Below, piece after piece: positions 21,998 through 42,690 of a DNA stretch of 64,000 nt. A model generated the notes under the pieces. The model saw only the letters and a program-made list of their open reading frames with translations, did not search any database and was not told the DNA's origin. Location: NCBI RefSeq assembly GCF_020782115.1, contig NZ_JAJGMW010000010.1:62001-126000 (forward strand), in the 5' to 3' direction. The stretch is from Leeuwenhoekiella parthenopeia. Lineage in GTDB: Bacteria; Bacteroidota; Bacteroidia; Flavobacteriales; Flavobacteriaceae. Numbering within the stretch: the stretch's first letter is position 1; each line of letters opens with the position of its first letter. The position numbers and the translations under genes are program-made.

Positions 21998-24900
21998 ATG
22001 AAGCATGTAATACTTAGAGGTATGTTGTTTTTAGCTTCGCTTTTACTGGCAGGTATGGCGAATGCACAAACAGTATCCGGGACAGTATCGGAGCCTAACG
22101 GCCCATTACCAGGTGCTAACGTCCTTGTTAAGGGAACCACCAATGGTACTACAACAGATTTTGACGGTAACTATACTTTAAATAATGTTCCCTCAAATGC
22201 AACACTTGTTTTCAGTTATGTAGGTTTTGCACAGCAGGAAGTTGCTGTTAACGGAAGATCTACCGTAAATGTAACACTAGAAGAAGATGCTGCGGCACTT
22301 GAGGAAGTGGTGGTAATTGGTTACGGTACTACGACCGTACGTGATGCAACCGGTTCTGTTTCTTCGGTCACCGCAGAAGAGTTTAATCAGGGTGCTATCG
22401 CATCTCCGGAACAACTTATTCAAGGTAAAACTGCGGGGGTCAACATTTCTCAAAATAGTGGTGAGCCAGGAGCTGGTAATAATATTCGTATCCGTGGTTC
22501 CAACTCTATTCGCTCGAACAACAATCCTCTTTTCGTAGTGGATGGTATTCCACTTTCCGGTGAGTCAACAACACCATCAGGAGGTGATATCATCAATGGT
22601 GCTAATGCTACAAGAAACCCGTTAAACTTTATCAACCCTAACGATATCGAGAGCATTTCTATCTTAAAGGATGCTTCTGCTACAGCAATCTACGGTTCTC
22701 GTGGTGCTAATGGGGTTGTAATTGTAACCACAAAAAGCGGTCGCGGTGCACAGGGAGGTGTGTTCGAATTTTCTTCAAACATGAGTTTTTCTGCTCCTGC
22801 TCAAAACTATGACTTATTTAATGCTCAACAATTCCTTGCAAATACTGAAGAGTTAAGAGGGCAGGATATTGCTAATGATTTGGACTTTGGTTTTAATACA
22901 GATTGGCAGGATTATATAACCCGTTCAACAATATCTACAAACAACAACCTATCTTATTCGAATAACTACAACTCAGGTAATATACGTGCAACCGTAAGTT
23001 ATGGTAATATAGAAGGGGTTATCCAAAACTCTTCTCAAGAGCGTATCACTACGCGTCTTAACGCCAATCAGCGTTTCTTTGATGATAAATTAAGTTTTGC
23101 GTTGCAGGCATCGTATTCACGTGTAAATGATGAAGCACCACCTATCAGTGGGCAGGGTGGAGCCAGTGGTAACCTTATTGGTGCTGCTTACTCAGCTAAC
23201 CCTACCTGGCCGGCTGACCCTGAGTTCTTTTTTGCGGGAAACCTTTTGAACCCCGCAAACTATTTGAACAACTACAATGCAAATACAAATACCAACAGGT
23301 ATCTAATCAATTTATCTACAGAATATAAATTTACTGATGCCATTACCGGTAAAGTAAGTTTAGGTTATGATAACTCAGACGCTGAGGCACAAGCTTCGGT
23401 ATCTCCGAACATCAATAACTTTAACCGTGTAACTGATAATGGGCAGGCATCTTTCAATACACTGGAGAACACCAGCAAATTATTAGAAGCAACCCTTCGT
23501 TATGCTAAAGAATTTGACAATTTCAAAATTGATGCACTTGCAGGGTATTCATTTCAGGATTTCAGACGTCAGGGATTCAATGCGCAAGGTTATGGTTCTC
23601 CTGTAACAAATCTGTTAGATATGCAGGATGCTCTTAGAGGTGCTGTAAGTGATCTTCGCGGAAGAATCAATGTACCTTATCAACAATTTGGTTATGACAG
23701 TAATGGTGCTAATTCATTCTTAAATTCTCTTGTACCTTTTGACGACAGCGGTGTATTACCATCTTTTACCGGAGTTTATGAAACTCTTTGGTTAGACACT
23801 TTTGATAACACAGACGAATTACAATCCTATTTTGCTCGATTACAGTTTACATTTTCTGAAAAATATCTACTTACAGCCACAATGAGAGCTGATGGTTCTT
23901 CTCGTTTTGGAGAAAACAATAAATATGGATATTTCCCTTCTGCTGCATTCGCTTGGCAATTGGGTGATGAAGATTTTATAGGCGATGCATTCTCAACCCT
24001 TAAATTAAGAGTTGGTGCAGGTTCTACCGGTAACCAGGAAGGTTTAGGTTATGCTCAGTATTTAAACAGACAGCGCTTTGGAGGTCCTGGTATTACTGAT
24101 GATGGTACTGTTAACAGACCAGGTCTCGAAACTGTTGCGGTACAAAACCCTGATCTTAAATGGGAATCAACAATAGACCTAAACTTTGGTATTGATTTTG
24201 GATTTAATAATGACCGTTTTAATGGATCACTTGACCTTTATCGCAAAGCCACAAGAGACTTACTTTTTAGATCACCAGCTCCTGCTCCTGCATTTGATCC
24301 GTTCCGATTTGTTAACCTTGAAGATGGAGAAGTAATAAATAAAGGTGTGGAATTAGCTCTTAACTACGATCTTATACAGACTGAAGATGTAAACTTCTCA
24401 GCTTCTTTCAATATTTCTTACAACCATAACGAGGTAACGGGATTAAATGGTGCTGTTGCAAATTTTGGTGAAGTAAATGGACCTGGTCTTACCGGGGCGT
24501 TTGTTCAAAGACTTGGTGAAGGCAGATCCTTATTCTCCTACTATATGGCTGAATATGCAGAAGATGCTAGTGGTAATCCTGATTTCTCTGCAGATGACAA
24601 AGTTTTTGTTGGCAAAGATGCATTACCAGACTGGAACACCGGTTTGTCTCTTAACCTGAGCGTTAAAAACTGGGATTTTTCTACGTTCTTTACCGGTCAG
24701 TTCGGTTTTTATGTGTACAACAACACTGCAAACGCATTCTTAAACAGACCTACATTCTTAACTTCAAGAAACAGTACATCTGATGGTTTGGCTTTGGTTT
24801 CACAGGAAGTTTCTACTCTCTATTTAGAGAACGGAGATTTTGTACGACTTCAAAACGCTTCTGTAGGTTACAACATTCCTATGCGTGAGGGCTCTGCAAT

Positions 24901-25084
24901 TCAATCGATGCGCGTAAATGTAACTGGTCAAAACTTATTACTGATCACGGGGTATAGTGGTTTGGATCCTGAAGTTTCCTCTTCAACCGGTGACTTTGGT
25001 AGTGGTATTCCTAGTGCAGGTATTGACTATACGTCATTCCCAAGACCTACTACAGTTACAGTTGGCTTAAATGCAAGATTTTAA
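21998..25084 (+). CDS. SusC/RagA-type TonB-dependent outer-membrane transporter
   Basis: The 1,028-residue protein has a signal peptide (to about residue 24). A CarboxypepD_reg-like domain follows (about 26-100, with VSGTVSEPNGPLPGANVLVKG and DFDGNYTL), then the TonB plug with SILKDASATAIYGSRGANGVVIVTT near 222-246, the SusC signature. A 22-strand barrel ends in VGLNARF, with the terminal Phe used for barrel assembly. It forms the import channel under the SusD lid, driven by TonB. The next gene is SusD, 19 bp away. No glycoside hydrolase is linked, so the ligand may not be a polysaccharide. Confidence 0.95.
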   Translation: MKHVILRGMLFLASLLLAGMANAQTVSGTVSEPNGPLPGANVLVKGTTNGTTTDFDGNYTLNNVPSNATLVFSYVGFAQQEVAVNGRSTVNVTLEEDAAALEEVVVIGYGTTTVRDATGSVSSVTAEEFNQGAIASPEQLIQGKTAGVNISQNSGEPGAGNNIRIRGSNSIRSNNNPLFVVDGIPLSGESTTPSGGDIINGANATRNPLNFINPNDIESISILKDASATAIYGSRGANGVVIVTTKSGRGAQGGVFEFSSNMSFSAPAQNYDLFNAQQFLANTEELRGQDIANDLDFGFNTDWQDYITRSTISTNNNLSYSNNYNSGNIRATVSYGNIEGVIQNSSQERITTRLNANQRFFDDKLSFALQASYSRVNDEAPPISGQGGASGNLIGAAYSANPTWPADPEFFFAGNLLNPANYLNNYNANTNTNRYLINLSTEYKFTDAITGKVSLGYDNSDAEAQASVSPNINNFNRVTDNGQASFNTLENTSKLLEATLRYAKEFDNFKIDALAGYSFQDFRRQGFNAQGYGSPVTNLLDMQDALRGAVSDLRGRINVPYQQFGYDSNGANSFLNSLVPFDDSGVLPSFTGVYETLWLDTFDNTDELQSYFARLQFTFSEKYLLTATMRADGSSRFGENNKYGYFPSAAFAWQLGDEDFIGDAFSTLKLRVGAGSTGNQEGLGYAQYLNRQRFGGPGITDDGTVNRPGLETVAVQNPDLKWESTIDLNFGIDFGFNNDRFNGSLDLYRKATRDLLFRSPAPAPAFDPFRFVNLEDGEVINKGVELALNYDLIQTEDVNFSASFNISYNHNEVTGLNGAVANFGEVNGPGLTGAFVQRLGEGRSLFSYYMAEYAEDASGNPDFSADDKVFVGKDALPDWNTGLSLNLSVKNWDFSTFFTGQFGFYVYNNTANAFLNRPTFLTSRNSTSDGLALVSQEVSTLYLENGDFVRLQNASVGYNIPMREGSAIQSMRVNVTGQNLLLITGYSGLDPEVSSSTGDFGSGIPSAGIDYTSFPRPTTVTVGLNARF

Positions 25085-25103
25085 TCTTAAAAAAATTGAT
25101 AAA

Positions 25104-26726
25104 ATGAAAAGACTAAACAAATTTAAATTGGTTTTTCTCAGTGTCCTAACGGTTACAGCTTTTAGTGCCTGTACCGATCTAGAAATTGAGGAGACAGATT
25201 CAATACTTACTGACGGTTTTACTGGTATTCCTACAGCTGAGGAAGCGGCTAGTACCGTTAGTGGTATGTACAATAATATTAGAGGATATGTTGGTGATCA
25301 GGCAAACCTGTATGCTCTTAGTGAAGTTACTACCGATGCTCAATTAGTACCTACCCGAGGATCTGACTGGGGGGATAACGGAATCTGGAGGCAGCTTCAC
25401 CAGCACACCTGGACTGCAGACCATCAATATATCAGAACCGTATTCGATCAGTGGAACGAGTTGCAATTGACCGCAAGTACAGTACTTGACGAACGCTCTG
25501 CTTCTTCATCTGACTCAAGGGCACAAGCCTCTTTCTTAAGAGCTTTAGGTATGTTTGTGATATTAGATAATTTCGGTCAGGTTCCGTACAGAGATACCAC
25601 AGCCGATCCACGTGAAAATCCCGAAGTTCTTACCGGTGCAGATGCAGTAGCTTTTATCGCTTCTGATTTACAAAATGCTATTTCAGGCTTACCGAGTTCT
25701 TCTGCAGGAGACGACAACCCACGCGCAACACAAGCAGCGGCTCGTTATCTATTGGCTAAACTTCATTTGAATAGACATATATATGAAGGAACAGGAAGTC
25801 CTGCTGCTTCAGATATGAATGAAGTGATTTCTTTAGTTGAAGAAATTGAAGAAGATGGATACGCATTGCACGATGGCTACTTTGAACTATTTGAGCCTAC
25901 AGCTGATACTGAAACCATCTGGTATATCAACACCTCTACCGGTAACCGTATCTGGAATACGCTGCACTATAACTTCACCCACCCTGATAACACAGGTGGT
26001 GGTTGGAATGGTTTTGCCACACTTGCTGAATATTACGATCTTTTTGAAGGTCCCGCTAACAGTAACAACCCAGGTGAAGGACAGGAAGAGCGCAGAGGTT
26101 ATGTGGCACAACGTGGTGTAGCTTTTACTGGACAGGAATTTATGACTGACGCTGATAACGATGGCTTTGCTGATGCTTCAAACGTTGGTTATGGATTCTT
26201 AATTGGCCAGCAATACGCCCTAAATGGAGCTCCTCTTACAGATAGAGGTAATGTGCCCTTACAATTTAAACGTGATTTTGTTGACGCCAGTACCGGCCAA
26301 CCTAGTCTTGTAGAAAACGGCGAGCAAACGGGGATTCGTGTAATTAAATACAACCCGAGAAACGGTGCCTTTAGAGAGCACGAAATTTTCTTCCGTTATT
26401 CTGATGCTTATTTGATGAAAATTGAGGCCATTCACAATGGTGGAACCAGTTCAGATAATGCATTAACTCTTATGAATGCGTTGAGAACATTAAGAGATGC
26501 AACCCCTTTAACAAGTTTAACCGATCAGGATATTATTGATGAAAGAGGTCGTGAATTATACACTGAATTTTGGAGACGTAATGACTTAATTCGTTTTGGT
26601 CAATACACCAAAGACTGGGCGTTTAAAGATCCTTCTGCAGTAGGTAATACAGACAAGAATTTGTTCCCAATACCTAACACTCAGGTTATTCTCAACCCTA
26701 ATTTAGTTCAAAACCCGGGCTACTAA
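25104..26726 (+). CDS. SusD/RagB-type surface lipoprotein
   Basis: The start is ATG 25104. The longer frame begins inside the end of susC and would bury the signal. The 540-residue product has the lipobox FSAC with Cys23. The body shows SusD features: an N-terminal TPR-like region (FLRALGMFVILDNFGQVPYRD), an extended ligand-binding middle, and a C-terminal RGRELYTEFWRRNDLIRFGQY motif. It caps the SusC channel and captures the ligand at the cell surface. A terminator follows 22 bp after the stop, so susC-susD may be separable from the large FG-GAP genes downstream. Confidence 0.93.
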   Translation: MKRLNKFKLVFLSVLTVTAFSACTDLEIEETDSILTDGFTGIPTAEEAASTVSGMYNNIRGYVGDQANLYALSEVTTDAQLVPTRGSDWGDNGIWRQLHQHTWTADHQYIRTVFDQWNELQLTASTVLDERSASSSDSRAQASFLRALGMFVILDNFGQVPYRDTTADPRENPEVLTGADAVAFIASDLQNAISGLPSSSAGDDNPRATQAAARYLLAKLHLNRHIYEGTGSPAASDMNEVISLVEEIEEDGYALHDGYFELFEPTADTETIWYINTSTGNRIWNTLHYNFTHPDNTGGGWNGFATLAEYYDLFEGPANSNNPGEGQEERRGYVAQRGVAFTGQEFMTDADNDGFADASNVGYGFLIGQQYALNGAPLTDRGNVPLQFKRDFVDASTGQPSLVENGEQTGIRVIKYNPRNGAFREHEIFFRYSDAYLMKIEAIHNGGTSSDNALTLMNALRTLRDATPLTSLTDQDIIDERGRELYTEFWRRNDLIRFGQYTKDWAFKDPSAVGNTDKNLFPIPNTQVILNPNLVQNPGY

Positions 26727-26748
26727 TTTCTAGAATTTGCCAAATATG

Positions 26749-26782
26749 AAAAGAGGGTCATTTTTTAAATGATCCTCTTTTT
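26749..26782 (+). terminator. Terminator after susD
   Basis: AAAAGAGGGTCATTT (26749-26763) and AAATGATCCTCTTTT (26767-26781) pair over 15 bp with one G-T pair and end in a T run. The symmetric A/T flanks could act in both directions. Confidence 0.85.
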
Positions 26783-26861
26783 AAATTTAAGAACGCACGT
26801 ATTTAGAGTAGCAAACACATTTAAAGAATACGTATTAAGTCACTCCAGCCTTTTAAAATTG

Positions 26862-26874
26862 GGCACATTGTGCC
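26862..26874. promoter_or_regulatory. Palindrome GGCACATTGTGCC upstream of the FG-GAP gene trio
   Basis: The perfect 6-bp arms GGCACA and TGTGCC surround one T. It lies 31 bp before the first FG-GAP gene and touches a TATATTTC sequence resembling a -7 element. It could be an operator. A shorter related palindrome, GCACCTGTGC, occurs at 30222 before the second gene. Confidence 0.4.
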
Positions 26875-26905
26875 TATATTTCCCCAAATTTTAGAACAAG
26901 TCTTC

Positions 26906-29900
26906 ATGTCCCGAAGTTGTCTTTATTTATTAATTGCTCTGTTGCTAGTAGCATCCTGTACGAAACAAAGCCGAGAGTCTGTTATGCTGACGGCTCTTGA
27001 AGATACCGGCATTGATTTTAGCAATGACCTGACCACTACAACGCAACTCAACATTCTCAATTACCTGTACTTCTACAATGGCGCCGGTACCGCAATTGCA
27101 GATTTTAATAATGACGGACTGCAAGACATTTACTTTACCGGAAATCTGGTTAACGATAAGCTCTATCTCAATCAGGGCAACTTAAAATTTAAAGACATCA
27201 GCAAAGAAGCCGGAATAACAAATACCGATTGGAATACCGGTGTTACCTCAGTCGACATAAATGCAGACGGCCTTCTTGATATTTATGTGTGTACGGTAAG
27301 TGGACATCTGGATCTTCAAGGTCGCAACAAACTGTATGTCAATCAGGGCGTAAAAAACGGAGTTCCTACCTTCAAAGAAGCTGCCGCAGATTACGGTCTC
27401 GACTATGCGGGGCTTTCAACTCAAGCTGCTTTTTTTGACTACGATCTGGACGGTGATCTCGATATGTACCTGCTCAACCACTCGGTTCATCCCAATTCAA
27501 ACTACGGCCGGGCAGCAATACGCACGGTTTCAGACAGCCTGCGCGGCGATAAACTCTTCCAAAACAACAACGGCTATTTTACAGATGTTACTTCTGCCGC
27601 CGGGATTTTAAGCAGCAAAATAGGCTACGGCCTTGGGGTTTCGGTATCTGATTTAAACAATGACAACTACCCGGATCTCTATATTGCCAATGACTTCTTT
27701 GAAAACGACTACGTTTATCTCAACAATCAGGATGGAAGCTTTACAGAGGTAAATACTTCCGAGGATTTGTTAGGACACACATCCCACTTTTCAATGGGAA
27801 GCGCCATTGCAGACCTCAATAACGATAGTCATCCCGATATTTTGAGCCTTGATATGCTACCCGAAGATCTCGAAGTATTGAAAGCTTCAGGTACCGAATA
27901 CACTTACCCCATCTATCAAAATCAATTGCGCAACGGTTACGATTATCAGTTTATGCAAAATGCGTTGCAACTCAATCTGAGCAACAACCGCTTTGCCGAA
28001 ACCGCCTTTCAAAGCGGTATCGCCGCAACCGAATGGTCATGGAGTCCGCTGGCGGCTGATTTTGACAACGACGGCTTTAAAGATTTATACATTGCCAACG
28101 GGATTCTGGGCGCAACCAATGATATGGACTTCGTGAGTTTTATCTCAAACGAATCTATTCAGAAGCGATTGGGCAAAAACATGTCTGAAGCCGAACTCGA
28201 ATTCATCAAGCAATTACCCCAAACCTATGTGCCCAATTACGCCTACAAAAACAACGCTGACGGCAGCTTTACCGATGTAACCCAGAGCTGGACCGCAAAC
28301 ATTCCCTCGTTTAGCAACGGAGCTTCGTATGCCGATCTGGATAATGATGGCGACCTCGATATAGTGGTGAATAACATCAACGCGAAAGCTTTTATCCTGG
28401 AGAATAAAACCACAAACCCCGGGATTCAGATTCAGTTTAAGGGAGAAAAAGAAAACACCTTCGGAATCGGCACAAAACTCACCACCTTCTCTGGCGATAC
28501 CATTCAGTTTTTTGAGAATTATACCACAACCGGTTTTATGTCTGCCGTACCGCCTTCGGTAGTAATCGGTTTGGGTAAAGCTTCCAAAATTGACTCACTT
28601 CAGGTCCTTTGGCCTTCTGGGAAAACCCAGTCTTTGAAAAACATCAAAACCGGTTTGGTTTTAGAAGAAAAAAATGCTCAGGTAAAACCCCTGACAAGAA
28701 CTTTGATAAAGCCCGAAATCAACTGGATTCAGGATTCTCTGAACCTCAATTTCACGCATAAAGACGGTTCTTCCATCGAATTTAGCCGCGATCCGCTCGT
28801 GCCTTACGCCGGTACTAATACGGGTCCGCAAATTGAAAGGGCCGATTTTAACCAGGACGGATTGGATGACCTTATCATTCTCGGTGCCAAAGCTCAAAAA
28901 ACGTCACTTTTCCTTCAAAATAAAGACGGAAGCTTAACCGAGTCTTTTTTACCCGAAGCCGATGACGATGCCATCAACGAAGATACTGCGGTCGCGATTT
29001 TTGATGCAGACGGAAACGGCACTCCCGACATTGTCATCGCCAGCGGTGGCAACGAGTTCACTCAGGGAAAAGCACTTACTCCCCGCCTCTACCTCAACAC
29101 AAACGGAAGCTTTCAGAAGTCGGAAAACGCATTTGAAGGTATTAATCTTAATGCATCTCAGATTAAGGCGGTAGATCTCAATGGGGATGGAAGTCTCGAT
29201 CTTTCGATTACAGCTGATTTGGTTCCGCAGGAATTTGGCGCCACACCACAACAGTACCTGTTGAAAAACGACGGCTCCGGTAATTTTACAGATATTACCT
29301 CAAGCTATGCTCCTGAATTTGAAAGCATCGGCAACGTAAAAGACATCATTTGGGCAGACCTCGATCAAAATGGTTATCCCGACGCTATCGTATGCGGCCA
29401 TTGGATGCCGATTTCCATCTTTACTAATGACGGAAAGCAATTAAAACCGGTGGATTCGGAAAGTTTGCACTACACAAACGGACTTTGGAACAGCCTTCAG
29501 GTGGCCGATTTTGACGGAGACGGAGACTTAGATATCGTTGCCGGAAACTGGGGCCTGAATACCCGCCTTAATGCTTCGGTTGAAGAGCCGCTGAACCTGT
29601 ACCGTTTCGATTTTGACGCTAACGGAAAAATTGATCCGGTGACTACTTATTTTTATAAAGGAACCGAAACGGTTTTGGCTACTAAAGACGAACTCGTAAA
29701 ACAGCTGCCCTATCTCAACAAACGTTTTCTGAGTTATAAAGCTTTCGCGAAAGCGAGCATTACCGATTTACTTTCCGCAGAGAAACTGAAAAAAGCCGAA
29801 AAAAAACAGGTATTTACTCTCGCAAGTACGTATTTTGAAAACACCGGTAATTTCAGTTTTAAAGCACATCAGCTTCCTTTTATGGCTCAAATTACCAGCG

Positions 29901-30187
29901 TGAAAAACATCGTGGCTTACGATTTTAATGAAGACGGACGTGAAGATCTGCTTTTGCTTGGCAACGATAGTGAAATCAGCACCCAACTGGGCAGACTCGA
30001 CGCTTCTCACGGTGTATTTTTACTCAATAAAGGCACAACATTTGAGTACGCAGATGCACCGAAAATTAACATTACCGGAGCGGTGCGCAGCAGTGCATTT
30101 TTTAATTTAAACAGCGAACCCTATCTTATTTTGGGGCGCAACAACGACAAACCTATTTTTATAAAAAAGCCCAAAATGGGCTTGTAA
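26906..30187 (+). CDS. FG-GAP/VCBS and ASPIC/UnbV repeat lipoprotein (CRTAC1-like), paralogue 1
   Basis: The start is ATG 26906, which opens straight into a lipoprotein signal ending VASC (Cys18). The 1,093-residue protein has many FG-GAP/VCBS blades with calcium-type loops such as DFNNDGLQDIY, DYDLDGDLDMY and DLDNDGDLDIV. An ASPIC/UnbV domain lies near residues 510-580 (SLQVLWPSGKTQ), and a second set of blades follows, as in CRTAC1-like proteins. It is probably a surface-anchored beta-propeller binding protein. No hydrolase motif is visible. The GCTTTCGCGAAAGC palindrome at 29741 encodes KAFAK here. It is the first of three tandem paralogues. Confidence 0.85.
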   Translation: MSRSCLYLLIALLLVASCTKQSRESVMLTALEDTGIDFSNDLTTTTQLNILNYLYFYNGAGTAIADFNNDGLQDIYFTGNLVNDKLYLNQGNLKFKDISKEAGITNTDWNTGVTSVDINADGLLDIYVCTVSGHLDLQGRNKLYVNQGVKNGVPTFKEAAADYGLDYAGLSTQAAFFDYDLDGDLDMYLLNHSVHPNSNYGRAAIRTVSDSLRGDKLFQNNNGYFTDVTSAAGILSSKIGYGLGVSVSDLNNDNYPDLYIANDFFENDYVYLNNQDGSFTEVNTSEDLLGHTSHFSMGSAIADLNNDSHPDILSLDMLPEDLEVLKASGTEYTYPIYQNQLRNGYDYQFMQNALQLNLSNNRFAETAFQSGIAATEWSWSPLAADFDNDGFKDLYIANGILGATNDMDFVSFISNESIQKRLGKNMSEAELEFIKQLPQTYVPNYAYKNNADGSFTDVTQSWTANIPSFSNGASYADLDNDGDLDIVVNNINAKAFILENKTTNPGIQIQFKGEKENTFGIGTKLTTFSGDTIQFFENYTTTGFMSAVPPSVVIGLGKASKIDSLQVLWPSGKTQSLKNIKTGLVLEEKNAQVKPLTRTLIKPEINWIQDSLNLNFTHKDGSSIEFSRDPLVPYAGTNTGPQIERADFNQDGLDDLIILGAKAQKTSLFLQNKDGSLTESFLPEADDDAINEDTAVAIFDADGNGTPDIVIASGGNEFTQGKALTPRLYLNTNGSFQKSENAFEGINLNASQIKAVDLNGDGSLDLSITADLVPQEFGATPQQYLLKNDGSGNFTDITSSYAPEFESIGNVKDIIWADLDQNGYPDAIVCGHWMPISIFTNDGKQLKPVDSESLHYTNGLWNSLQVADFDGDGDLDIVAGNWGLNTRLNASVEEPLNLYRFDFDANGKIDPVTTYFYKGTETVLATKDELVKQLPYLNKRFLSYKAFAKASITDLLSAEKLKKAEKKQVFTLASTYFENTGNFSFKAHQLPFMAQITSVKNIVAYDFNEDGREDLLLLGNDSEISTQLGRLDASHGVFLLNKGTTFEYADAPKINITGAVRSSAFFNLNSEPYLILGRNNDKPIFIKKPKMGL
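29741..29754. repeat. GCTTTCGCGAAAGC palindrome, copy 3
   Basis: This perfect 14-bp copy inside the first CRTAC1-like gene is read as Lys-Ala-Phe-Ala-Lys. The other two paralogues have different bases at the matching place, so the palindrome is not required by the protein. Confidence 0.85.
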
Positions 30188-30247
30188 TAATTAATATCCG
30201 AAAACCTGATTATAGCATAGCGCACCTGTGCTTAAAAAATATAATTG

Positions 30248-33200
30248 ATGAAAAATGTGTTTATGAATAGCTTAAAGCAAATTACCTTTTTCGGCTTATG
30301 CCTTCTTTTTGCAGCCTGCGGCAAAGACAGTTCAGAAACCCAGGAAACCGGGCCTCAGGAACCCAAACTTTTTAGTCTTTTGGGGCCTGAAACCACAGGT
30401 ATCGATTTTGTAAATGCCATCCAGAACGAAAAAGATTTCAATATTTTCAAATACCGCAATTTCTACAACGGCGGTGGCGTGGCTATTGGCGATATCAATA
30501 ACGATGGACTTGCAGACATCTATTTGACTGCCAATATGGGCCAAAACAAACTCTACCTCAACAAGGGCGATTTCAAGTTTGAAGACATTACCGAAAAAGC
30601 CGGTTTAGCTGGTGATAAACCCTGGTCTACCGGTGTGGTGATGGCCGATGTAAATGCAGACGGCCTGCTTGATATTTACGTCAGCAACGCAGGGAATATG
30701 GAAGGCGACAACCACGATAACGACCTGTACATCAACAACGGCGACCTTACTTTTACCGAAAAAGCAGAACAATACAATCTTGCAAAAACCGGCTTCTCCA
30801 CTCAAGCAAGCTTTTTTGACTACGATAAAGACGGCGATCTCGACGTGTATATCCTAAACAACAGCAACGTGCCTGTAAGTGGTTTGGGCTATGCCGAGCA
30901 ACGCGATACCCGTGCTGAAAACTGGGAAAATGTACCCGATATTTTTAAAGGTGTGGGCGATCTCTTGATGCGTAACGACGGAGACACCTTTACCGATGTG
31001 AGCGAGGAAGCAGGCATTTACGGCAGTCTTATTGGCTTTGGCCTGGGCGTGATGGTCACAGACATCAACAACGACCTCTGGCCCGACATCTACATTTCAA
31101 ACGACTTTTACGAGCGCGATTACCTGTACATCAACCAGCAGGATGGTACGTTTAGCGAAGAGATTAAAGACTGGACCTCGCACCTTTCGCTTTCGGCGAT
31201 GGGCGTTGACATCTCAGACGTCAACAACGATGGCTTGCAGGATATTTTTATCACCGATATGCTTCCCGAGCCGGAAGAGCGTGTAAAATCGGTGATGGAG
31301 TTTGACAGCTACAATGTGTACAAACTCAAGCAGAGCAAAGACTTTTACCAACAGTTCATTCAGAATACGCTACAGATCAACAACGGTAACGGCAGTTTTT
31401 CAGAAACCGCTTATTACAGTGGCGTTGATGCGACCGACTGGAGCTGGGCGGGCTTGCTAGTTGACCTGGACAATGACGGCTACCGCGATATTTACGTCAC
31501 AAACGGTATCAATCACGATCTGACTGACCTGGATTTCGTTGATTTTTTCGCCAACGAAATCATTCAAAATATGGCTTTAACCGGCAAACGCCAGGCTATT
31601 GATTCTATCATCAATAAAATGCCGAAAAAACCTTTGGTGAATGCGGTTTACCGAAACAAAAAAGACCTGAAATTTGAAAATGCAGCCACGCTCTGGGGAC
31701 TTGACCAGCCGGGTATGTCAAACGGTTCGGCCTACGGGGACCTTGATAATGACGGCGATCTGGATCTGGTGGTTAATAATGTGAATATGCAGGCTTTTGT
31801 GTACCGCAATGAGGCCGAAGAGCAAACCCAAAAGCGCTACCTCAACATCAGCCTTAAAGGCGGCGAGAAAAATCCGTTTGCCGTGGGTGCTTCGGTACGA
31901 CTGTATTTTGACAATCAGCAGATTTATCAGGAATTGTATCCCGTGCGCGGTTTTCAGTCTTCTATGGATTATGAGATGACTATAGGTCTGGGGCAAACGC
32001 AAAAGCTCGACTCGCTACGCGTACTTTGGCCTAATGACAAAACCCAATTGCTGACTGATGTTGCCACCAATCAAACCCTAAACCTTAGTCAGGCAGAAGC
32101 CACCGAAACTTTTATTCCGCGCAAGCAAAACACAGGGCCCCAGTTACTCACGGAGCTTAGCAATGGCAGTCTCAAAGCCAATCCGGAGAACGCCTACAAC
32201 GACTTTGATTATGAAGGTTTGATCGCCAAAAAACTTTCGCAGGAGGGTCCGGCTCTTGCCGTGGGCGATGTTAATGGAGATGGAAACGACGATGTATTTG
32301 TGGGTGCCCCTAGCGGAAGCGTGGCTACACTCTATCTGCATTCCGGTGACGGAAAACTGACTCCTAAAAATCAGGCCGTTTTTACGACTGACGACTATTT
32401 CGAAGATACCGCCGCTGCGCTTTTTGACGCAGACGGTGACGGAGACCTCGATTTATTGGTAGCTTCGGGCGGAAACGAGGTAGATAAAAAAGAACTTTTC
32501 CGACCGCGATTATACCTCAACGACGGCAAAGGGAATTTCACCAAATCACCTAACGAACTGCCTTCGGCCTTTCAGAATATGAGCGTGGTAGCACCAAATG
32601 ATTTTGACGGCGATGGCGATATGGATGTGTTTATTGGTTCCCGAAGTGTGGTGGGCGTTTACGGGGTTGATCCGCAGCAGTTGTTTTTAGAAAATACCGG
32701 CAACGGCATTTTTGTAGATGCGACTGAGCGTCTGGCTTACGATCTCAAAGATGCCGGAATGGTCACCGATGCGCTTTGGCTTGATATTGATGGCAACGGT
32801 TTTGACGATTTGATCACTGTTTCCGAATGGGGCACGCCACACATTTACCGCAATTCGGGCCGCAGACTTTCCGAAAAGGAAAGCAATCTGAGCGATAAAA
32901 CAGGCTGGTGGAATACGCTTGCGGCAACCGATATTGACAACGACGGCGACATGGATCTGGTTTTGGGTAACGAGGGCGAAAACCTGCATTACCTGCCCAC
33001 GGTCGAAAACCCGATGGTGATGTACATCAACGATTTTGACAACAACGGCACCATCGAGCAGATCACCACAATGCGTAAAAAAGGAAAGGATTATCCGCTG
33101 CATCAGAAGAAAGAGATCACGGCGCAAATGACTTCGCTTAAAAAGCAAAACCTGAAAGCTTCAGACTACGCAAGCCGTTTTATTGACGAGATCGTTTCAC

Positions 33201-33613
33201 CCGAGAGCCTTAAAAACGCGATCAAAAAGGAAGTGAGTTACTCCCAATCAGTGATCGCGATTAATGACGGCAAGGGGAATTTCAGCTTTAAAGCCCTGCC
33301 TTACCAGACGCAATTGTCCTGCGTGTGTGATATTTTGGCCACAGATCTAAATAAAGATGGCCTTGCAGACCTTATTATGGCGGGCAACAATTTTGAATTT
33401 AAACCGCAATATTCGCAATTGGATGCCAACTATGGTAACGTTTTGCTCAACACGGGCGGCGATAATTTTGACTGGCAGAATTACAGCAAAAGCGGATTTT
33501 TTGTAAAAGATGAAGTGAAGCAACTGGCGACCTTTAGCGATAAAAACGGAAACACCTTTGTCATAGCTGCCATAAACGATAAAAAACCGAAGATTTTTGA
33601 ACTCAATAACTAA
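30248..33613 (+). CDS. FG-GAP/VCBS and ASPIC/UnbV repeat lipoprotein (CRTAC1-like), paralogue 2
   Basis: The ATG at 30248 gives 1,121 residues with lipobox FAAC (Cys24); ATG 30266 is an alternative. The architecture matches paralogue 1: calcium-type blades (DINNDGLADIY, DYDKDGDLDVY, DLDNDGDLDLV), an ASPIC/UnbV domain near residues 535-605 including ELYPVRGFQSSMDYEMTIGLG, and a second blade set (GDVNGDGNDDVFVG, DFDGDGDMDVFIG). It follows paralogue 1 by 60 bp and overlaps paralogue 3. It is probably surface-exposed and involved in ligand binding for the SusCD pair, though this is an inference from position. Confidence 0.85.
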   Translation: MKNVFMNSLKQITFFGLCLLFAACGKDSSETQETGPQEPKLFSLLGPETTGIDFVNAIQNEKDFNIFKYRNFYNGGGVAIGDINNDGLADIYLTANMGQNKLYLNKGDFKFEDITEKAGLAGDKPWSTGVVMADVNADGLLDIYVSNAGNMEGDNHDNDLYINNGDLTFTEKAEQYNLAKTGFSTQASFFDYDKDGDLDVYILNNSNVPVSGLGYAEQRDTRAENWENVPDIFKGVGDLLMRNDGDTFTDVSEEAGIYGSLIGFGLGVMVTDINNDLWPDIYISNDFYERDYLYINQQDGTFSEEIKDWTSHLSLSAMGVDISDVNNDGLQDIFITDMLPEPEERVKSVMEFDSYNVYKLKQSKDFYQQFIQNTLQINNGNGSFSETAYYSGVDATDWSWAGLLVDLDNDGYRDIYVTNGINHDLTDLDFVDFFANEIIQNMALTGKRQAIDSIINKMPKKPLVNAVYRNKKDLKFENAATLWGLDQPGMSNGSAYGDLDNDGDLDLVVNNVNMQAFVYRNEAEEQTQKRYLNISLKGGEKNPFAVGASVRLYFDNQQIYQELYPVRGFQSSMDYEMTIGLGQTQKLDSLRVLWPNDKTQLLTDVATNQTLNLSQAEATETFIPRKQNTGPQLLTELSNGSLKANPENAYNDFDYEGLIAKKLSQEGPALAVGDVNGDGNDDVFVGAPSGSVATLYLHSGDGKLTPKNQAVFTTDDYFEDTAAALFDADGDGDLDLLVASGGNEVDKKELFRPRLYLNDGKGNFTKSPNELPSAFQNMSVVAPNDFDGDGDMDVFIGSRSVVGVYGVDPQQLFLENTGNGIFVDATERLAYDLKDAGMVTDALWLDIDGNGFDDLITVSEWGTPHIYRNSGRRLSEKESNLSDKTGWWNTLAATDIDNDGDMDLVLGNEGENLHYLPTVENPMVMYINDFDNNGTIEQITTMRKKGKDYPLHQKKEITAQMTSLKKQNLKASDYASRFIDEIVSPESLKNAIKKEVSYSQSVIAINDGKGNFSFKALPYQTQLSCVCDILATDLNKDGLADLIMAGNNFEFKPQYSQLDANYGNVLLNTGGDNFDWQNYSKSGFFVKDEVKQLATFSDKNGNTFVIAAINDKKPKIFELNN

Positions 33614-36600
33614 AATAAGCCTGCTGGCCCTGCTTGGGATGCTTAGCTACTCGTGCTCAGATAAGCCCAAGTTGTTTACCAATCCCGATACGCAAAAGGC
33701 CGGTATCAGCTTTCAGAATACACTGACCGCCAACGAGGACATGAACATCCTCGACTACCTCTATTTCTACAACGGGGGCGGACTCGCGATAGGCGACATC
33801 AACAACGATGGATTACCGGATATTTATTTCTCAGGAAATCAGGTAAAAAACCAGTTGTACCTCAACAAGGGCAATTTGCAATTTGAAGACATAACCAAAA
33901 CCGCCGGTGTGGCCGGAAACAGCGACTGGAATACCGGAGCAGTGATGGGCGATGTTAACGGTGACGGCTTTCTGGATATTTACGTGTGCGCCGTGGTAGG
34001 CCTCAACGGTCTGGATGGCTACAACGAACTGTTTATCAACAACGGCGACGGCACCTTTACCGAAAGCGCTGCGCAATACGGCCTGGACCTTGACACCTTC
34101 TCCTCTTCTGCTGCTTTTTTAGACTACGATCTGGATGGCGATCTGGATATGTACATTCTCAATCACGCGGTGCATACGCAGAGTTCTTTTGGCAAAGCCG
34201 AATTGCGCTACGAGCGAAATCCGCAAACCGGAGACCGCCTGATGCGCAACGACGATGGGCATTTTACAGACGTGAGCGAAGAAGCCGGTATTTACGGCGG
34301 AATCAATTCGTATGGCCTGGGCATCGCGGTGTCTGATTTTAACCTGGACGGCTTTCCCGATTTGTACATTGGTAACGATTTTCACGAGGATGATTACTAT
34401 TACATCAACAACGGCGACGGTACTTTTACCGAAGATTTAAAAGGCCATTTTGGGCATACCAGCAGGTTTTCTATGGGAAGCGATGTGGCTGATCTCAATC
34501 ACGACGGCTGGCCCGATTTGATTTCGCTTGATATGTTGCCGCAGGATGAAAACGTACTCAAGTCAACGGAAGGCGATGACAACATTCAAACACAGCGTTT
34601 GCGCACAGACCGCTACGGCTATCATTATCAGTTTACCCGCAATATGCTGTTTATAAACCGTGAGGGTGGCGATTATCAGGAAACCGCATTATTAAGTGGG
34701 GTTGCTGCGACCGACTGGAGCTGGAGTGCGCTTTTTGGCGATTACAATCAGGATATGCAGCAGGATTTGTTTATCTCAAACGGAATCCCCAAAAGACCTA
34801 ACGATCTGGATTACATCAAGTTTGTTTCGAGCGATCAGATTCAGAATAAAATAAACAACACGGCACTGATAGATCAAAAAGCCCTGGAGCTTATGCCCGG
34901 CGGCGTTACCCGCAACTATGTTTATGAGGGCAGTGAAGACCTTCAGTTTAAAGACCGAAGTGAAACCTGGATCGCAAACGACACGCTCGTGTCGGGCGCT
35001 ACAGCTTATGCTGACCTCGACAATGATGGAGATCTTGATTTGGTCACTAATAACATCAACACCGCTCCTACCCTTTATATCAATCAGACCAACGACAAAG
35101 CCAGTTATCTTAAAATCTATTTGAAGTCGGCTTCGCGAAATGATTTTGCGCTGGGCGCGAAAGTCTATGCCTACGCAAAGGGTGTACAGCAATTTAAAGA
35201 ACTGTATCCGGTACGCGGTTTTCAGGCATCGTCTGAGCCGGTGATTCATTTTGGCTTTGCAAACCAAAAACAGGTAGATTCGATACGTATTATTTGGCCA
35301 GATCGTACGAGCCAGATGCTAACCAATATTGCTACAAATCAGACGTTGCAGGTCAAACAGGAAAACACTTCGCCCTTTGACTATGCTGCACTTAGACCGA
35401 AGCGACAACTGCTTTTCAAACCGGTAACCGACTCGCTGGGTCTTGATTTTGTGCATCGCGAGGATGCCTATTCTGATTTTGACCGCGAGAAATTAATTCC
35501 CTATCTGGTGGGAGATCGCGGACCTGCTGTGGCTCAGGGCGACTTAAACGGCGACGGCAAAACCGATTTGTTCTTTGGCGGCTCTAAGTATATTTCCAGC
35601 AAAATCTATCTCCAAAGCGATTCAACTTTTGTAGAAACGAAATATCCAGGAATCCAAAACGATTCGATTAACGAAGAAGTGGTTGCTGTGATTGCCGATT
35701 TCAACAACGATGGTAAAAACGATTTGATGACCGGTACCGGCGGAGGTGATTTTTACAACCGCTCGAAACCCTTGCTTGATGTGTTGTATCTTAACGAGGG
35801 AGCTAGTTTTAAAGCTTCGGCCCTGCCGGAATTGTTTGAAAACACTTCGGTTTTAGCGACCTACGATTACGACGGCGACGGCGATCTTGACGTATTTGCG
35901 GGTTCACAGAGCGTCACGGCAAGTTTTGGGAAGTTGCCTTCCTCCTATTTGCTCGAAAACAATCAGGGTACTTTTCGCGTAGCGCAGGAATTCAAAGAAC
36001 TGGGTATGGTCACGGCTGCGGTTTGGGATGATTTTGACGCAGACGGCAAAGCCGATTTGATCGCGGTGGGCGAGTGGATGGCGCCAACCTTTCTAAAAAA
36101 CGAAGGCACCAAACTCAAACGGGTTTCTAAAACCGAAAAAGACCTCGAAGGGCTTTGGCAAAGCATCATTCCGTTTGATATAGATGATGATGGTGATACC
36201 GATTATATTGTGGGAAATTGGGGCGAAAACAGCAAGTTTCAGGCTTCGGCAGCATCGCCTATGAAAATGTACTACAGCGATTTTGACACTAACGGGCAAA
36301 CTGAAACCATCGTAACCACAGCAAAAGACGGTAAATACTATCCGCTTATGGGTCTCGATGCGCTGGCGTCACAGGTGGTAAGCCTCCGTAAAAAGTATCA
36401 AAGTTACCGGGATTTTGCAGGTCAGAGCATCGAGGAAATTCTTAGCGCCGAACAGTTAAAGAATTCCAAAATTTTAAACGTAAGCACCCTGAAAACCGGA
36501 TACTTACAAAATAATGGAAATTCATTTGATTTTGTACCTTTAGCGCGCGATTTACAGGTTGCTCCTGTTATGGCTTTTTGCCTGTTTGACTTTGATGGCG

Positions 36601-36845
36601 ATGGTAAGGAAGAGGTGCTCGCAGGTGGAAATTATTTTGGCGTACAACCCTTTCACGGAAGGCTCGACAGTTTTACGGGGGCTTTAATTAACAGTGAAAG
36701 CAACATCATTTCGGGTGAAAAACTCGGGTTAAAGTTTGCCGGGAAGTCCATACGTGATTTGTCTGTAATTCGTTTAAACGGGAAAGCTTATTTGATGGCA
36801 ACTGTAAATGACGCGCCTGTTCAGCTTTATGCTTTACAACCCTGA
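33597..36845 (+). CDS. FG-GAP/VCBS and ASPIC/UnbV repeat lipoprotein (CRTAC1-like), paralogue 3, TTG start
   Basis: The only in-frame start that keeps the lipoprotein signal (MNSITKISLLALLGMLSYSC, Cys20) is TTG 33597, because an in-frame stop lies at 33573 and the next Met is residue 15. The gene overlaps the end of paralogue 2 by 17 bp, so it is translationally coupled. The 1,082-residue product repeats the family plan: blades with DINNDGLPDIY and DYDLDGDLDMY, ASPIC/UnbV near residues 505-580 with ELYPVRGFQASSEPVIHFGFA, then further blades. It is more similar in layout to paralogue 2 than to 1. Its function is unknown, presumably shared with the SusCD system. Confidence 0.85.
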   Translation: MNSITKISLLALLGMLSYSCSDKPKLFTNPDTQKAGISFQNTLTANEDMNILDYLYFYNGGGLAIGDINNDGLPDIYFSGNQVKNQLYLNKGNLQFEDITKTAGVAGNSDWNTGAVMGDVNGDGFLDIYVCAVVGLNGLDGYNELFINNGDGTFTESAAQYGLDLDTFSSSAAFLDYDLDGDLDMYILNHAVHTQSSFGKAELRYERNPQTGDRLMRNDDGHFTDVSEEAGIYGGINSYGLGIAVSDFNLDGFPDLYIGNDFHEDDYYYINNGDGTFTEDLKGHFGHTSRFSMGSDVADLNHDGWPDLISLDMLPQDENVLKSTEGDDNIQTQRLRTDRYGYHYQFTRNMLFINREGGDYQETALLSGVAATDWSWSALFGDYNQDMQQDLFISNGIPKRPNDLDYIKFVSSDQIQNKINNTALIDQKALELMPGGVTRNYVYEGSEDLQFKDRSETWIANDTLVSGATAYADLDNDGDLDLVTNNINTAPTLYINQTNDKASYLKIYLKSASRNDFALGAKVYAYAKGVQQFKELYPVRGFQASSEPVIHFGFANQKQVDSIRIIWPDRTSQMLTNIATNQTLQVKQENTSPFDYAALRPKRQLLFKPVTDSLGLDFVHREDAYSDFDREKLIPYLVGDRGPAVAQGDLNGDGKTDLFFGGSKYISSKIYLQSDSTFVETKYPGIQNDSINEEVVAVIADFNNDGKNDLMTGTGGGDFYNRSKPLLDVLYLNEGASFKASALPELFENTSVLATYDYDGDGDLDVFAGSQSVTASFGKLPSSYLLENNQGTFRVAQEFKELGMVTAAVWDDFDADGKADLIAVGEWMAPTFLKNEGTKLKRVSKTEKDLEGLWQSIIPFDIDDDGDTDYIVGNWGENSKFQASAASPMKMYYSDFDTNGQTETIVTTAKDGKYYPLMGLDALASQVVSLRKKYQSYRDFAGQSIEEILSAEQLKNSKILNVSTLKTGYLQNNGNSFDFVPLARDLQVAPVMAFCLFDFDGDGKEEVLAGGNYFGVQPFHGRLDSFTGALINSESNIISGEKLGLKFAGKSIRDLSVIRLNGKAYLMATVNDAPVQLYALQP

Positions 36846-36870
36846 TTTTAGAAACAAGAAGTTTAGAATT

Positions 36871-38226
36871 ATGTTTAAGAATATTTCAATCCTGACTTTC
36901 AGTATATGTGTTTTTATCTCGTGTAACACCGAGCAGAAGCCTCTTAGCGTTACGCCCGATGACTACAACAATGCCGTAGATAAAGTTACCGAGGTTATTA
37001 TTCACGATATTTTTTCACCTCCGGTGGCGAGTCGTATTTATGCCTATTCCAATATTGCGGCCTATGAAGTTTTGGCCCAAAACCATCCCGAGTATAATTC
37101 GCTGGCCGGTAAATTAAATGGTCTGGGCGAAACGCCAAAGGCTGAAAATCCTGCTGTAAACTATGACGTAGCGGCTTTGATCGCACAAATGGAGATGGCT
37201 AAAAGCCTTATTTTTAGTGAAGATCGAATCACCGAGGTTCGCGACAGTCTGTATAAAACCTGGGAAGATCAAAACGCTGACGAACTCGCGGCGTCAAAAG
37301 CATACGGACTTCAGGTTGCCGACCACATCAAAAGCTGGATGGATGGCGACAATTACAAACAAACCCGTACGATGCCCAAATTTTCGGTAAATGCTGATAA
37401 TCCTTCACGCTGGCAACCCACTCCTCCTGCTTATATGGACGGGATTGAACCACACTGGATGAAGATTCGTCCTTTTGTGCTCGACTCGGCTTCACAGTTT
37501 AAGCCTCTGCCTCCACCGGCCTTTTCGATGGAAGAAGGCAGCGAGTTCCACAAGCAATTGATGGAAGTCTATAACGTACGCAACGAGATGACGGCTAAGG
37601 GTGATGACTCTGAGGAAGCGCAAATCGCAAAATTCTGGGATTGTAACCCTTATGTGTCAACCCACAAAGGCCATCTGATGTTTGCAACCAAAAAAATCAC
37701 TCCGGGCGGGCACTGGATTGGGATTGTAAAGATCGCTACCAAAAAGAACAATGCAGACCTGATGGAAACGGTTTATGCGTATACCAAAACTTCAATCGCC
37801 CTGTTTGATGGCTTTATCAGCTGCTGGGATGAAAAATACCGCAGTAACCTCATTCGTCCGGAGACCCTGATCAACCAATATATCGATGACAGCTGGGCGC
37901 CGGTATTACAAACCCCGCCATTTCCTGAATACAGCAGCGGTCATTCGGTAGTTTCCGGTGCTGCCTCAGAAGTACTTACCGAAATTTATGGGGATAATTT
38001 TCAGTTTGATGACGACACGGAGACCGCTTATGGCTTACCGGTGCGCAGCTTTACTTCATTTAGAGCAGCATCATCAGAAGCTGCTTTAAGCAGATTATAT
38101 GGTGGTATTCATTACCGTGCGGCCATAGAGGAAGGCTTAAAACAAGGTCGCCAGCTGGGGCAGCATATCGTTAATAACCTCCACATGAAAAACGACGGCG
38201 AAGCCCTTTCGCACAGCGGAAACTAG
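36871..38226 (+). CDS. Vanadium-dependent haloperoxidase / PAP2-like lipoprotein
   Basis: The start is ATG 36871. The longer frame begins inside the preceding gene. The 451-residue product has lipobox FISC (Cys18). The acid-phosphatase/haloperoxidase motifs are present: KYRSNLIRP (Lys322, Arg329), SSGHS (His358) and SRLYGGIH (Arg408, His414). These residues hold phosphate or vanadate. In motif 3, the Asp that normally follows four residues after His is Ala418. The protein therefore binds an oxyanion but may not be a normal PAP2 phosphatase. It lies 25 bp after the last FG-GAP gene, so it probably belongs to the same operon. The substrate is unknown. Confidence 0.82.
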   Translation: MFKNISILTFSICVFISCNTEQKPLSVTPDDYNNAVDKVTEVIIHDIFSPPVASRIYAYSNIAAYEVLAQNHPEYNSLAGKLNGLGETPKAENPAVNYDVAALIAQMEMAKSLIFSEDRITEVRDSLYKTWEDQNADELAASKAYGLQVADHIKSWMDGDNYKQTRTMPKFSVNADNPSRWQPTPPAYMDGIEPHWMKIRPFVLDSASQFKPLPPPAFSMEEGSEFHKQLMEVYNVRNEMTAKGDDSEEAQIAKFWDCNPYVSTHKGHLMFATKKITPGGHWIGIVKIATKKNNADLMETVYAYTKTSIALFDGFISCWDEKYRSNLIRPETLINQYIDDSWAPVLQTPPFPEYSSGHSVVSGAASEVLTEIYGDNFQFDDDTETAYGLPVRSFTSFRAASSEAALSRLYGGIHYRAAIEEGLKQGRQLGQHIVNNLHMKNDGEALSHSGN

Positions 38227-38278: not shown

Positions 38279-39193
38279 ATGATCAAGAAAATTGGTTTTG
38301 TAGTGGCTACCCTGCTCTTTGTTGCACTCGCCTGGTATCTTTTTGTAAAACCCAGTGATTACATCATCAATTTCAAAGTAAAAACCACGCCGGGTACGGT
38401 TGTTCAGTCTGTAAAAAGCTGGAATAGCAATTTAACGGCGAGTACAATTACCGAGCAGCACGGAACTTCGGCTATTGTTCAGAAAAGGCAGTTTGGAGAT
38501 TCTACGGTTACCTATACCTATCACGCTTATGCCCTTAACGATTCAATTACCAAGGTAAGTGTAGGTATCAAAGATGCAGAGCACAGCCTAAAAAACCGGC
38601 TAACGGTGCCTTTTGCCAATACACTTTTTAAGGAGCGTAGTACCGCAAATGTGATGGAGTTTTTTGAGACGCTGAATGAACACCTCAAGCAAATAAAAAT
38701 CGAAATAACGGGCATTGAGAAAACACCTTCAACCTATTGCGCCTACATTCCGCTTAAAAGTATGCAGGAAGCCAAAGCGCTGGGAATGATGCGTAATTAC
38801 GGGTATATAGGCGATGTGTTGGCACGTAATAATGTAGAAATGAACGGACCTCCATTTGTAGAGGTAACTGAGTGGAATCAGGAAACAGACAGCATCTCAT
38901 ACAACTTTTGCTTCCCAATTATACGCTCCGAAAATTTACCTATAACAGACGGAATCAAATACAAACGCCTGTTTGAAAAAGAAGCAATTCACGCAGTATA
39001 TAATGGAAATTATATCACTTCAGACCGCGCCTGGTACGCTTTATTAGCTTACGCAAAGCAAAATAATATCGAAGTTGATGCCAAGCCTTTAGAGGTTTTT
39101 TTTAACAACCCAAATATGGGAGGCAATGAGCTGGAATGGAAAGCAGACATTTATATGCCACTAAAGCAGGAAAGTCCGGTGAAGATAAACTAA
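38279..39193 (+). CDS. Membrane-anchored GyrI-like/effector-binding domain protein
   Basis: The 304-residue protein has one N-terminal membrane helix (about residues 5-24) and an SRPBCC-like middle part. The C-terminal half (about residues 145-300) resembles the GyrI-like, AraC-type effector-binding domain, with YCAYIPLKSMQEA and the later HAVYNGNYITSDRAWYALLAYAKQ block. Such domains bind small hydrophobic ligands. It is 52 bp downstream of the haloperoxidase-like gene on the same strand and could be the last gene of that operon. It overlaps the convergent hypothetical gene by 4 bp. Its role is unknown. Confidence 0.65.
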   Translation: MIKKIGFVVATLLFVALAWYLFVKPSDYIINFKVKTTPGTVVQSVKSWNSNLTASTITEQHGTSAIVQKRQFGDSTVTYTYHAYALNDSITKVSVGIKDAEHSLKNRLTVPFANTLFKERSTANVMEFFETLNEHLKQIKIEITGIEKTPSTYCAYIPLKSMQEAKALGMMRNYGYIGDVLARNNVEMNGPPFVEVTEWNQETDSISYNFCFPIIRSENLPITDGIKYKRLFEKEAIHAVYNGNYITSDRAWYALLAYAKQNNIEVDAKPLEVFFNNPNMGGNELEWKADIYMPLKQESPVKIN

Positions 39194-42028: not shown

Positions 42029-42032
42029 ACTA

Positions 42033-42689: not shown

Positions 42690-42690
42690 T

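Follow-up and report, generated by a model that had tools for sequence, protein, structure and literature searches.

A vanadium haloperoxidase, CRTAC1-like propellers and a GyrI-like protein in a conserved SusCD gene block of Flavobacteriaceae

Why should a SusC/SusD importer be encoded beside three giant propeller lipoproteins and a haloperoxidase-like lipoprotein? We asked this of a gene block in Leeuwenhoekiella parthenopeia (NCBI RefSeq assembly GCF_020782115.1) that lies within a stretch of 64,000 nucleotides (contig NZ_JAJGMW010000010.1, positions 62,001 to 126,000), hereafter the window, to whose first letter the coordinates below refer. Marine Bacteroidota are leading consumers of algal matter, and brown algae use peroxide and halogens in self-defence; to our knowledge, the physiological role of bacterial vanadium iodoperoxidases, like that of bacterial CRTAC1-like UnbV proteins, is unsettled. 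The locus proved to be larger and far better conserved than an initial annotation, made from the sequence of the window, could see. We read it, with a probability of roughly 40%, as a conserved two-unit Flavobacteriaceae locus in which sugar uptake is co-deployed with a peroxide-driven, halide-oxidising surface module.

A conserved gene block around a haloperoxidase gene

The initial annotation had described six genes on one strand, encoding SusC, SusD, three FG-GAP/UnbV lipoproteins (FG1, FG2 and FG3) and a haloperoxidase-like lipoprotein, and had staked its reading on this order being conserved elsewhere. All six plus-strand open reading frames (ORFs) were confirmed in place, and their positions and Pfam/NCBIfam domains bear out the layout (Table 1), with TIGR04056 and PF07980 both above cut-off for the SusC/RagA barrel and the SusD lipoprotein that follows it. 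FG1 and FG2 are 57 nt apart, FG2 and FG3 overlap by 17 nt, and 25 nt separate FG3 from the likely ATG of the haloperoxidase gene. A lipobox-type Cys is present in SusD, FG1-3 and the haloperoxidase of the window, and under a relaxed lipobox rule 250 of 291 FG, 125 of 138 haloperoxidase and 87 of 88 SusD ORFs from relatives were positive.

Among 80 loci picked by haloperoxidase similarity, with up to 10 kb of flank, 76 hold at least one FG ORF and 69 a GyrI ORF. A context-blind sample was drawn from 299 genomes of the family, 129 of which (the window's own included) have a haloperoxidase, giving 147 matches including that of the window; for 140 of the 146 other matches, all but six distant copies, we took stretches of 20 kb that reach 16.5 kb upstream unless a contig end cuts them short, and labelled their genes with home-made profiles at 60 bits or more. 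An FG gene lies directly next to the haloperoxidase gene, on the same strand, in 106 of these 140 stretches and anywhere in 124; SusC or SusD occurs in 101, FG together with SusC/SusD in 99, and a GyrI gene directly downstream of the enzyme in 69. The gene order is far beyond chance, and the conservation on which the initial annotation depended was found. When the 124 best-ranked copies are restricted to the 111 with at least 15 kb upstream, FG is adjacent in 84 and present anywhere in 101, SusC/SusD is present in 90, both in 88 and neither in 8, and 67 of the 111 have three FG ORFs. The 16 low-ranked copies (one of which, L227, is 56% identical but split) have an adjacent FG gene in 13 cases and SusC/SusD in 8. 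In L111, L155, L169, L173, L215 and L227 a gene for FG, SusC or the haloperoxidase is divided into two ORFs, and such genes were counted as found.

The same association emerges from searches that start with other genes of the block. With the two best candidates per genome scored, SusC of the window has matches at E ≤ 1e-250 in 68 of the 299 genomes, its own included; a haloperoxidase occurs in 66 of these 68, against 129 of 299 overall (hypergeometric 3e-27, a value that ignores relatedness), and 60 of the 68 closest matches lie within 30 kb of a haloperoxidase gene on the same strand. Of the other eight genomes, six (G108, G278, G210, G232, G062 and G289) have a haloperoxidase that is not near the SusC match, and in two (G094 and G297) no haloperoxidase was found. 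The initial annotation was right about its six genes and one gene short in extent, since a GyrI-like gene immediately downstream also belongs to the block: across the 299 genomes, own included, 73 of 77 GyrI matches fall within 10 kb of a haloperoxidase, at a median distance of 26 nt. In the four others the match is not near the enzyme (G289 and G225) or no haloperoxidase was found (G146 and G047); G289 has its SusC and GyrI matches on one contig, away from the haloperoxidase.

A SusC tree (FastTree, 76 rows, with only three paralogues from the window's own genome) places 50 block SusCs, that of the window among them, in one clade, and a separate clade of 15 comes from loci with a small extra lipoprotein; because several branches are long, we use the tree lightly. 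This lipoprotein, of about 200 aa and with no Pfam match in the one copy scanned, stands beside FG genes in 27 of the 140 stretches (L107, L116, L150 and 24 others), all of them without GyrI, and the 15 such loci with a whole SusC make up the separate clade. In 36 of the 140 stretches (L103, L105 and 34 others), mostly about 18.7 kb into the stretch, there is another conserved, lipoprotein-like protein further on, of about 285 aa, for which the copy scanned likewise gave no Pfam match.

Beyond the family, a class-wide scan of 296 genomes found a haloperoxidase at E ≤ 1e-20 in 54. For the 50 of these that lie outside the family, the positions of 93 haloperoxidase genes were compared with those of the best 150 UnbV_ASPIC domain matches. 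At least 47 of the 93 genes, in at least 30 of the 50 genomes, have a UnbV_ASPIC domain within 8 kb on the same strand, both figures being lower bounds because only the 150 best matches were compared; 52 of these 150 domains are near the enzyme.

What kind of enzyme is the last lipoprotein? It matches 4cit/4usz by phmmer at 1.6e-213 over ORF residues 24-465, with 67% identity, and these entries are the Zobellia galactanivorans iodoperoxidase (4USZ_A, PMC5064120; 4CIT, according to the accessible part of PMC13198595). The closest named relative in our scan, from which records of the window's own genome may have been excluded, is a 92% identical protein in a Leeuwenhoekiella metagenome-assembled genome. 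Residue numbers follow the Zobellia enzyme, zgVIPO1, as do the roles that we take its active-site residues to have. The window protein has all the vanadate-binding and catalytic residues checked. K324, R331, S358, H360, R410, H416, W321 and F353 do not vary among the 200 proteins, that of the window included, that are at least 50% identical to zgVIPO1, nor among the 21 more distant haloperoxidases; these counts cover ORFs longer than 380 aa in two mixed collections with duplicates (L015 and L109 give the same result). G359 is kept in 199 of the 200 and in all 21; D322 is D in 194 of the 200 and 14 of the 21; and at position 263 the close set has 188 Y and 12 F, whereas just 4 of the distant set have Y. 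Kinship and residues thus support the haloperoxidase call of the initial annotation, and since both fit a peroxidase, we set aside the phosphatase reading of the PAP2 match as less probable.

Zobellia uliginosa has an orthologue that shares 98.4% identity with the solved enzyme of Z. galactanivorans and stands in the order symporter (minus strand), FG, FG, FG, haloperoxidase, GyrI, with a close SusC relative about 22 kb upstream of the enzyme on the same strand. Judged through this orthologue, the characterised zgVIPO1 itself probably sits in the FG-FG-FG-enzyme-GyrI arrangement too. The genome of the window carries a second SusC-SusD-FG-haloperoxidase set (contig C1 of G000; L094/L095), whose enzyme has 497 aa, is 30% and 40% identical to that of the window in two segments, and has a signal peptide with no lipobox.

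FG1, FG2 and FG3 are about 40% identical to one another over their whole length and are therefore paralogues. As judged by Pfam, structure model and Foldseek, they combine FG-GAP repeats with a UnbV_ASPIC domain, the make-up that defines CRTAC1-like ASPIC/UnbV proteins. The AlphaFold model of FG2 (pLDDT 85, pTM 0.85) has murine CRTAC1 (9etn) as its top Foldseek match at E 8.5e-25, 13 orders of magnitude ahead of the next. In an alignment of 48 FG proteins the lipobox Cys is invariant in all 48, as are many positions in Asp-rich loops, which would be expected to bind calcium; the propellers are plausible, if putative, capture or docking proteins. Elsewhere in the same genome (contig C2, L098:2941-6180) an FG/UnbV gene beside a SusCD pair is split into two ORFs.

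The GyrI-like protein was modelled at pLDDT 92 as an N-terminal helix with further domains, and its Foldseek matches are CtaZ, CTR107 and the BmrR domain. Aromatic residues are conserved, and a Glu, E272, is invariant in 38 of 38 aligned proteins; to judge by its motif, it is probably the key acidic residue of the GyrI family. Other members of this family bind xenobiotics, and one subfamily hydrolyses DNA-alkylating cyclopropanoids, protecting cells, as the accessible part of PMC5684135 has it.

Table 1. Features of the block and its surroundings in the window.
Feature	Position	Strand	Evidence
SusC/RagA TonB-linked outer-membrane transporter, 1028 aa	21998..25084	+	TIGR04056, 698 bits
SusD lipoprotein lid, 540 aa; ORF opens at 25071, likely start 25104	25104..26726	+	PF07980, PF14322
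FG1, CRTAC1-like lipoprotein, 1093 aa; ORF opens at 26870, likely start 26906	26906..30187	+	FG-GAP_3, UnbV_ASPIC
FG2, CRTAC1-like lipoprotein, 1122 aa	30245..33613	+	FG-GAP_3, UnbV_ASPIC; AlphaFold model; Foldseek
FG3, CRTAC1-like lipoprotein, 1082 aa	33597..36845	+	FG-GAP_3, UnbV_ASPIC; phmmer CRTAC1 9etn, 1.6e-12
Vanadium haloperoxidase lipoprotein, Zobellia iodoperoxidase (4cit/4usz) type, 451 aa; ORF opens at 36808, likely start 36871	36871..38226	+	phmmer, PAP2
Membrane-anchored GyrI-like small-molecule-binding protein, 304 aa, further block partner	38279..39193	+	PF06445 at residues 179-296
GH65-type gene, beta-phosphoglucomutase (beta-PGM), LacI regulator; neighbours outside the core block	39722..43734	-	relatives in 140 stretches: LacI 31, beta-PGM 7, GH65 1
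Candidate degenerate LacI-type operator, two mismatches, 119 nt before susC	21879..21890	.	position agrees with relatives' GAAAMCGWTTTC sites
Terminator-like hairpin with U tail, susD/FG1 gap	26747..26783	+	-20.6 kcal/mol, z -6.0

Two probable transcription units and the imported ligand

Junctions between neighbouring labelled genes, measured between ORF ends less than 450 nt apart, have median gaps of 11 nt for SusC-SusD, 108.5 nt for SusD-FG, -8 nt for FG-FG, 2 nt for FG-haloperoxidase and 3 nt for haloperoxidase-GyrI. A T-tailed hairpin at or below -14 kcal/mol is present at 59 of 60 SusD-FG junctions and at none of 66 SusC-SusD, 70 FG-FG, 70 FG-haloperoxidase and 68 haloperoxidase-GyrI junctions, the folded sets covering 70 of 145 FG-FG and 70 of 100 FG-haloperoxidase junctions and these stretches being shorter, which favours fewer hairpins; at or below -10 kcal/mol, three haloperoxidase-GyrI junctions have one. 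In addition, 20 of 93 loci have an opposite-strand gene inserted between SusD and the first FG gene. From the gap medians, the SusD-FG hairpin and these insertions, susCD probably forms one unit and the FG-enzyme-GyrI group another, whether fully separate or partly coupled. The hairpin and insertion counts led us to give up a single operon of all block genes in favour of two units, and they also mean that independent expression of susCD and the downstream genes, taken by the initial annotation as a sign against a joint system, may hold in part. A generic scan for sigma-70 promoters was uninformative (26 sites, against 33.6 in shuffles), and one for terminators (29, against 18.7) did not pick out the susD hairpin.

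What, then, does the importer carry? By sequence the best solved SusC is 8aa4 (338 bits; the next, 5t3r, has 270), which is the SusC of the dextran system of Bacteroides thetaiotaomicron in the accessible part of PMC7618045. SusD matches 3jys best among PDB entries and starch SusD 3ck7 at 6e-19. Of the 140 stretches, 39 have a sodium:solute symporter, 31 a LacI regulator and 7 beta-PGM, and 23 have xylose isomerase (XylA) together with xylulokinase (XylB), whose match scores below its NCBIfam cut-off. For isomerase, kinase, symporter and LacI a single relative served to check the name, and for beta-PGM the gene of the window itself. We rejected the XylA/XylB pair as a constant partner of the block, since it occurs in just 23 of the 140 stretches and is scattered on the SusC tree (6 changes in 7 rows).

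In 23 of the 57 loci with enough upstream DNA, the divergent gene next to susC encodes LacI. The palindrome GAAAMCGWTTTC, allowing one mismatch, occurs within 450 nt before susC in 22 of 23 LacI-linked promoters, from which the motif was read off, so that only the 36 other promoters test it; it is present in 16 of these, an independent check. Overall this LacI-type operator is found in 38 of 59 susC promoters of relatives, against a background elsewhere of 0.02 per 450 nt and 2 of 112 in the 300 nt before the first FG gene. In the window the two-mismatch version is not significant alone, since 46 such matches occur where 32 are expected; the window LacI is 50-56% identical to the LacI of 12 of the 31 LacI-bearing stretches.

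On the operator, the nearby sugar genes and the kinship to 8aa4 and 3ck7, a sugar is a likelier ligand of SusCD than any halogenated or phosphorylated compound. The phosphorylated, halogenated or lipid ligand proposed in the initial annotation is therefore not borne out. Its statement that the block has no glycan-degrading enzyme stands between 21998 and 39193, where Pfam/NCBIfam matches include no carbohydrate-active enzyme; it does not extend to the flank downstream, whose opposite strand carries a GH65-type gene, beta-phosphoglucomutase and LacI. These adjoin the block as part of a disaccharide/fructan-type cluster (39722-47729), continued on the plus strand by GH32, a sugar transporter and a pfkB kinase, and a 14-pair hairpin, terminator-like on both strands, lies at 39665-39699 between a 155-aa ORF with no Pfam match and the GH65 gene.

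Weighing the possible functions

In the reading that we favour, the first unit, susC-susD, with its LacI-type operator in many relatives, would import a small sugar or oligosaccharide, and the second, FG1-FG2-FG3-haloperoxidase-GyrI, would place a vanadium haloperoxidase and a propeller scaffold that binds calcium next to the importer in a surface complex. With H2O2 the enzyme would oxidise iodide, possibly bromide, and during feeding at algal or particle surfaces it could thereby spend peroxide with iodide as electron donor; the GyrI-like protein might bind reactive or halogenated aromatic by-products at the membrane, as protection, and iodine accumulation may follow. Two sets of published observations are in line with this. 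The accessible text of PMC9296495 reports that vIPO3, a vanadium iodoperoxidase of Z. galactanivorans, is upregulated with the brown alga Ascophyllum nodosum compared with alginate, and that macroalgae induced oxidative-stress genes in the same study. To take up iodine, Arenibacter C-21 requires either glucose, oxygen and calcium or a source of peroxide, and at least five homologues of the iodoperoxidase are encoded in its genome (PMC5064120).

Several observations weigh against this reading. No H2O2-producing enzyme is found among the block genes. The nearby sugar genes differ from genome to genome and could be neutral neighbours of the block, 2 of the 23 XylA loci have neither SusCD nor FG in the stretch, and in the window itself the operator is weak, with LacI about 21 kb downstream of where susC starts. 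The haloperoxidase may work alone, since a directly adjacent FG gene is lacking in 34 of the 140 stretches and both FG and SusC/SusD in 14 (some clipped in either case). Propeller specificity is in question as well: two loci of the window's own genome (L098 and L099) have FG genes beside other SusC genes without the enzyme, and of the best 150 UnbV domains outside the family 98 are not near one. Nor is the halide preference safely readable from residues, because an enzyme from Rhodopirellula with an indirect connection to iodoperoxidase-like sequences turned out to be a chloroperoxidase that prefers bromide (PMC12871659, in its accessible part).

Given the Arenibacter work, the main rival, which we consider somewhat unlikely, is that the block serves iodine accumulation itself: the haloperoxidase would make hypoiodite from seawater iodide, the propellers or SusCD would concentrate it or an iodinated carrier, and iodine would be stored in the cell, with sugars supplying peroxide or energy. 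The requirements and enzyme homologues of strain C-21 speak for it, as do two other Arenibacter genomes (L042 and L046, C-21 being a different genome) that carry SusD, two FG genes, the enzyme and GyrI in this order, and the invariant Asp-rich FG loops, of a kind that may be calcium sites; yet no block gene resembles an iodide transporter or reductase by Pfam/NCBIfam, and a LacI-type operator is found with the SusC relatives. We regard as unlikely the proposal of the initial annotation, in which the imported ligand is halogenated, phosphorylated or a lipid, the propellers capture it and the last lipoprotein processes it, by halogenation or phosphatase-like PAP2 chemistry. The link by gene order between haloperoxidase and SusCD across many genomes and the GyrI-like partner, whose fold binds hydrophobic aromatics, would suit it, but operator and some linked genes indicate sugars, residues and close kinship indicate a peroxidase, and neither a dehalogenase nor a lipase is found among the block genes (Pfam/NCBIfam). 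Halogenation could alternatively be a step of uptake, the haloperoxidase iodinating or oxidising a propeller-held sugar-aromatic ligand or carrier that SusCD imports and GyrI receives at the inner membrane; this we hold to be rather unlikely, and if it were true, the surface enzyme of the importer would be an oxidant and not a hydrolase.

It seems quite improbable that the module is a weapon, with surface hypohalous acid harming rivals or breaking their signals during feeding and GyrI giving self-protection: the enzyme is a lipoprotein and the GyrI-like partner is directly downstream in 69 of 140 loci, but an adjacent GyrI gene is lacking in the other 71, and the block has no toxin, export or immunity gene, GyrI perhaps excepted. 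The least probable case, which we judge very improbable, is that of unrelated surface genes inherited together. The differing sugar genes around the block and the 14 of 140 enzymes with neither FG nor SusC/SusD would fit it, but it is already contradicted by the recurrence of the link: distant enzymes keep it, with an adjacent FG gene in 13 of 16 low-ranked copies, the second set in the window's own genome repeats the order SusC-SusD-FG-haloperoxidase, and at least 47 of 93 haloperoxidase genes outside the family have a UnbV domain within 8 kb.

Comparison with known systems

Each part of this locus is already known, and the combination would be the new element; among the titles and abstracts listed by our literature searches, which left most subscription papers outside, none describes the combined locus. 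The conserved place of the enzyme in a SusCD-propeller-GyrI block supplies it with partner genes, a probable division into two transcription units and a candidate signal for regulation, and the block may tie bacterial iodine accumulation, and hence the marine iodine cycle, to sugar uptake.

With zgVIPO1 (4cit, 4usz) the window enzyme shares 67% of residues and the same active site, and the difference lies in context, as zgVIPO1 is treated as a single enzyme, without mention of propellers, SusCD or GyrI, in the accessible parts of its literature. Like CRTAC1 (cartilage acidic protein 1, 9etn), the FG proteins have FG-GAP repeats followed by an ASPIC/UnbV domain, but they are lipoproteins, about twice as long, with extra FG-GAP repeats after the UnbV domain. 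The GyrI-like protein has the fold of the binding and cyclopropanoid-hydrolase proteins CTR107, CtaZ and lin2189, and unlike them it is fused to an N-terminal helix and another domain. Finally, as in the levan and dextran SusCD glycan utilisomes of Bacteroides, to go by the accessible part of PMC7618045, SusC, SusD and surface lipoproteins are encoded together; in the window, however, the surface enzyme is a vanadium peroxidase in place of a glycoside hydrolase, and the auxiliary lipoproteins are CRTAC1-like.

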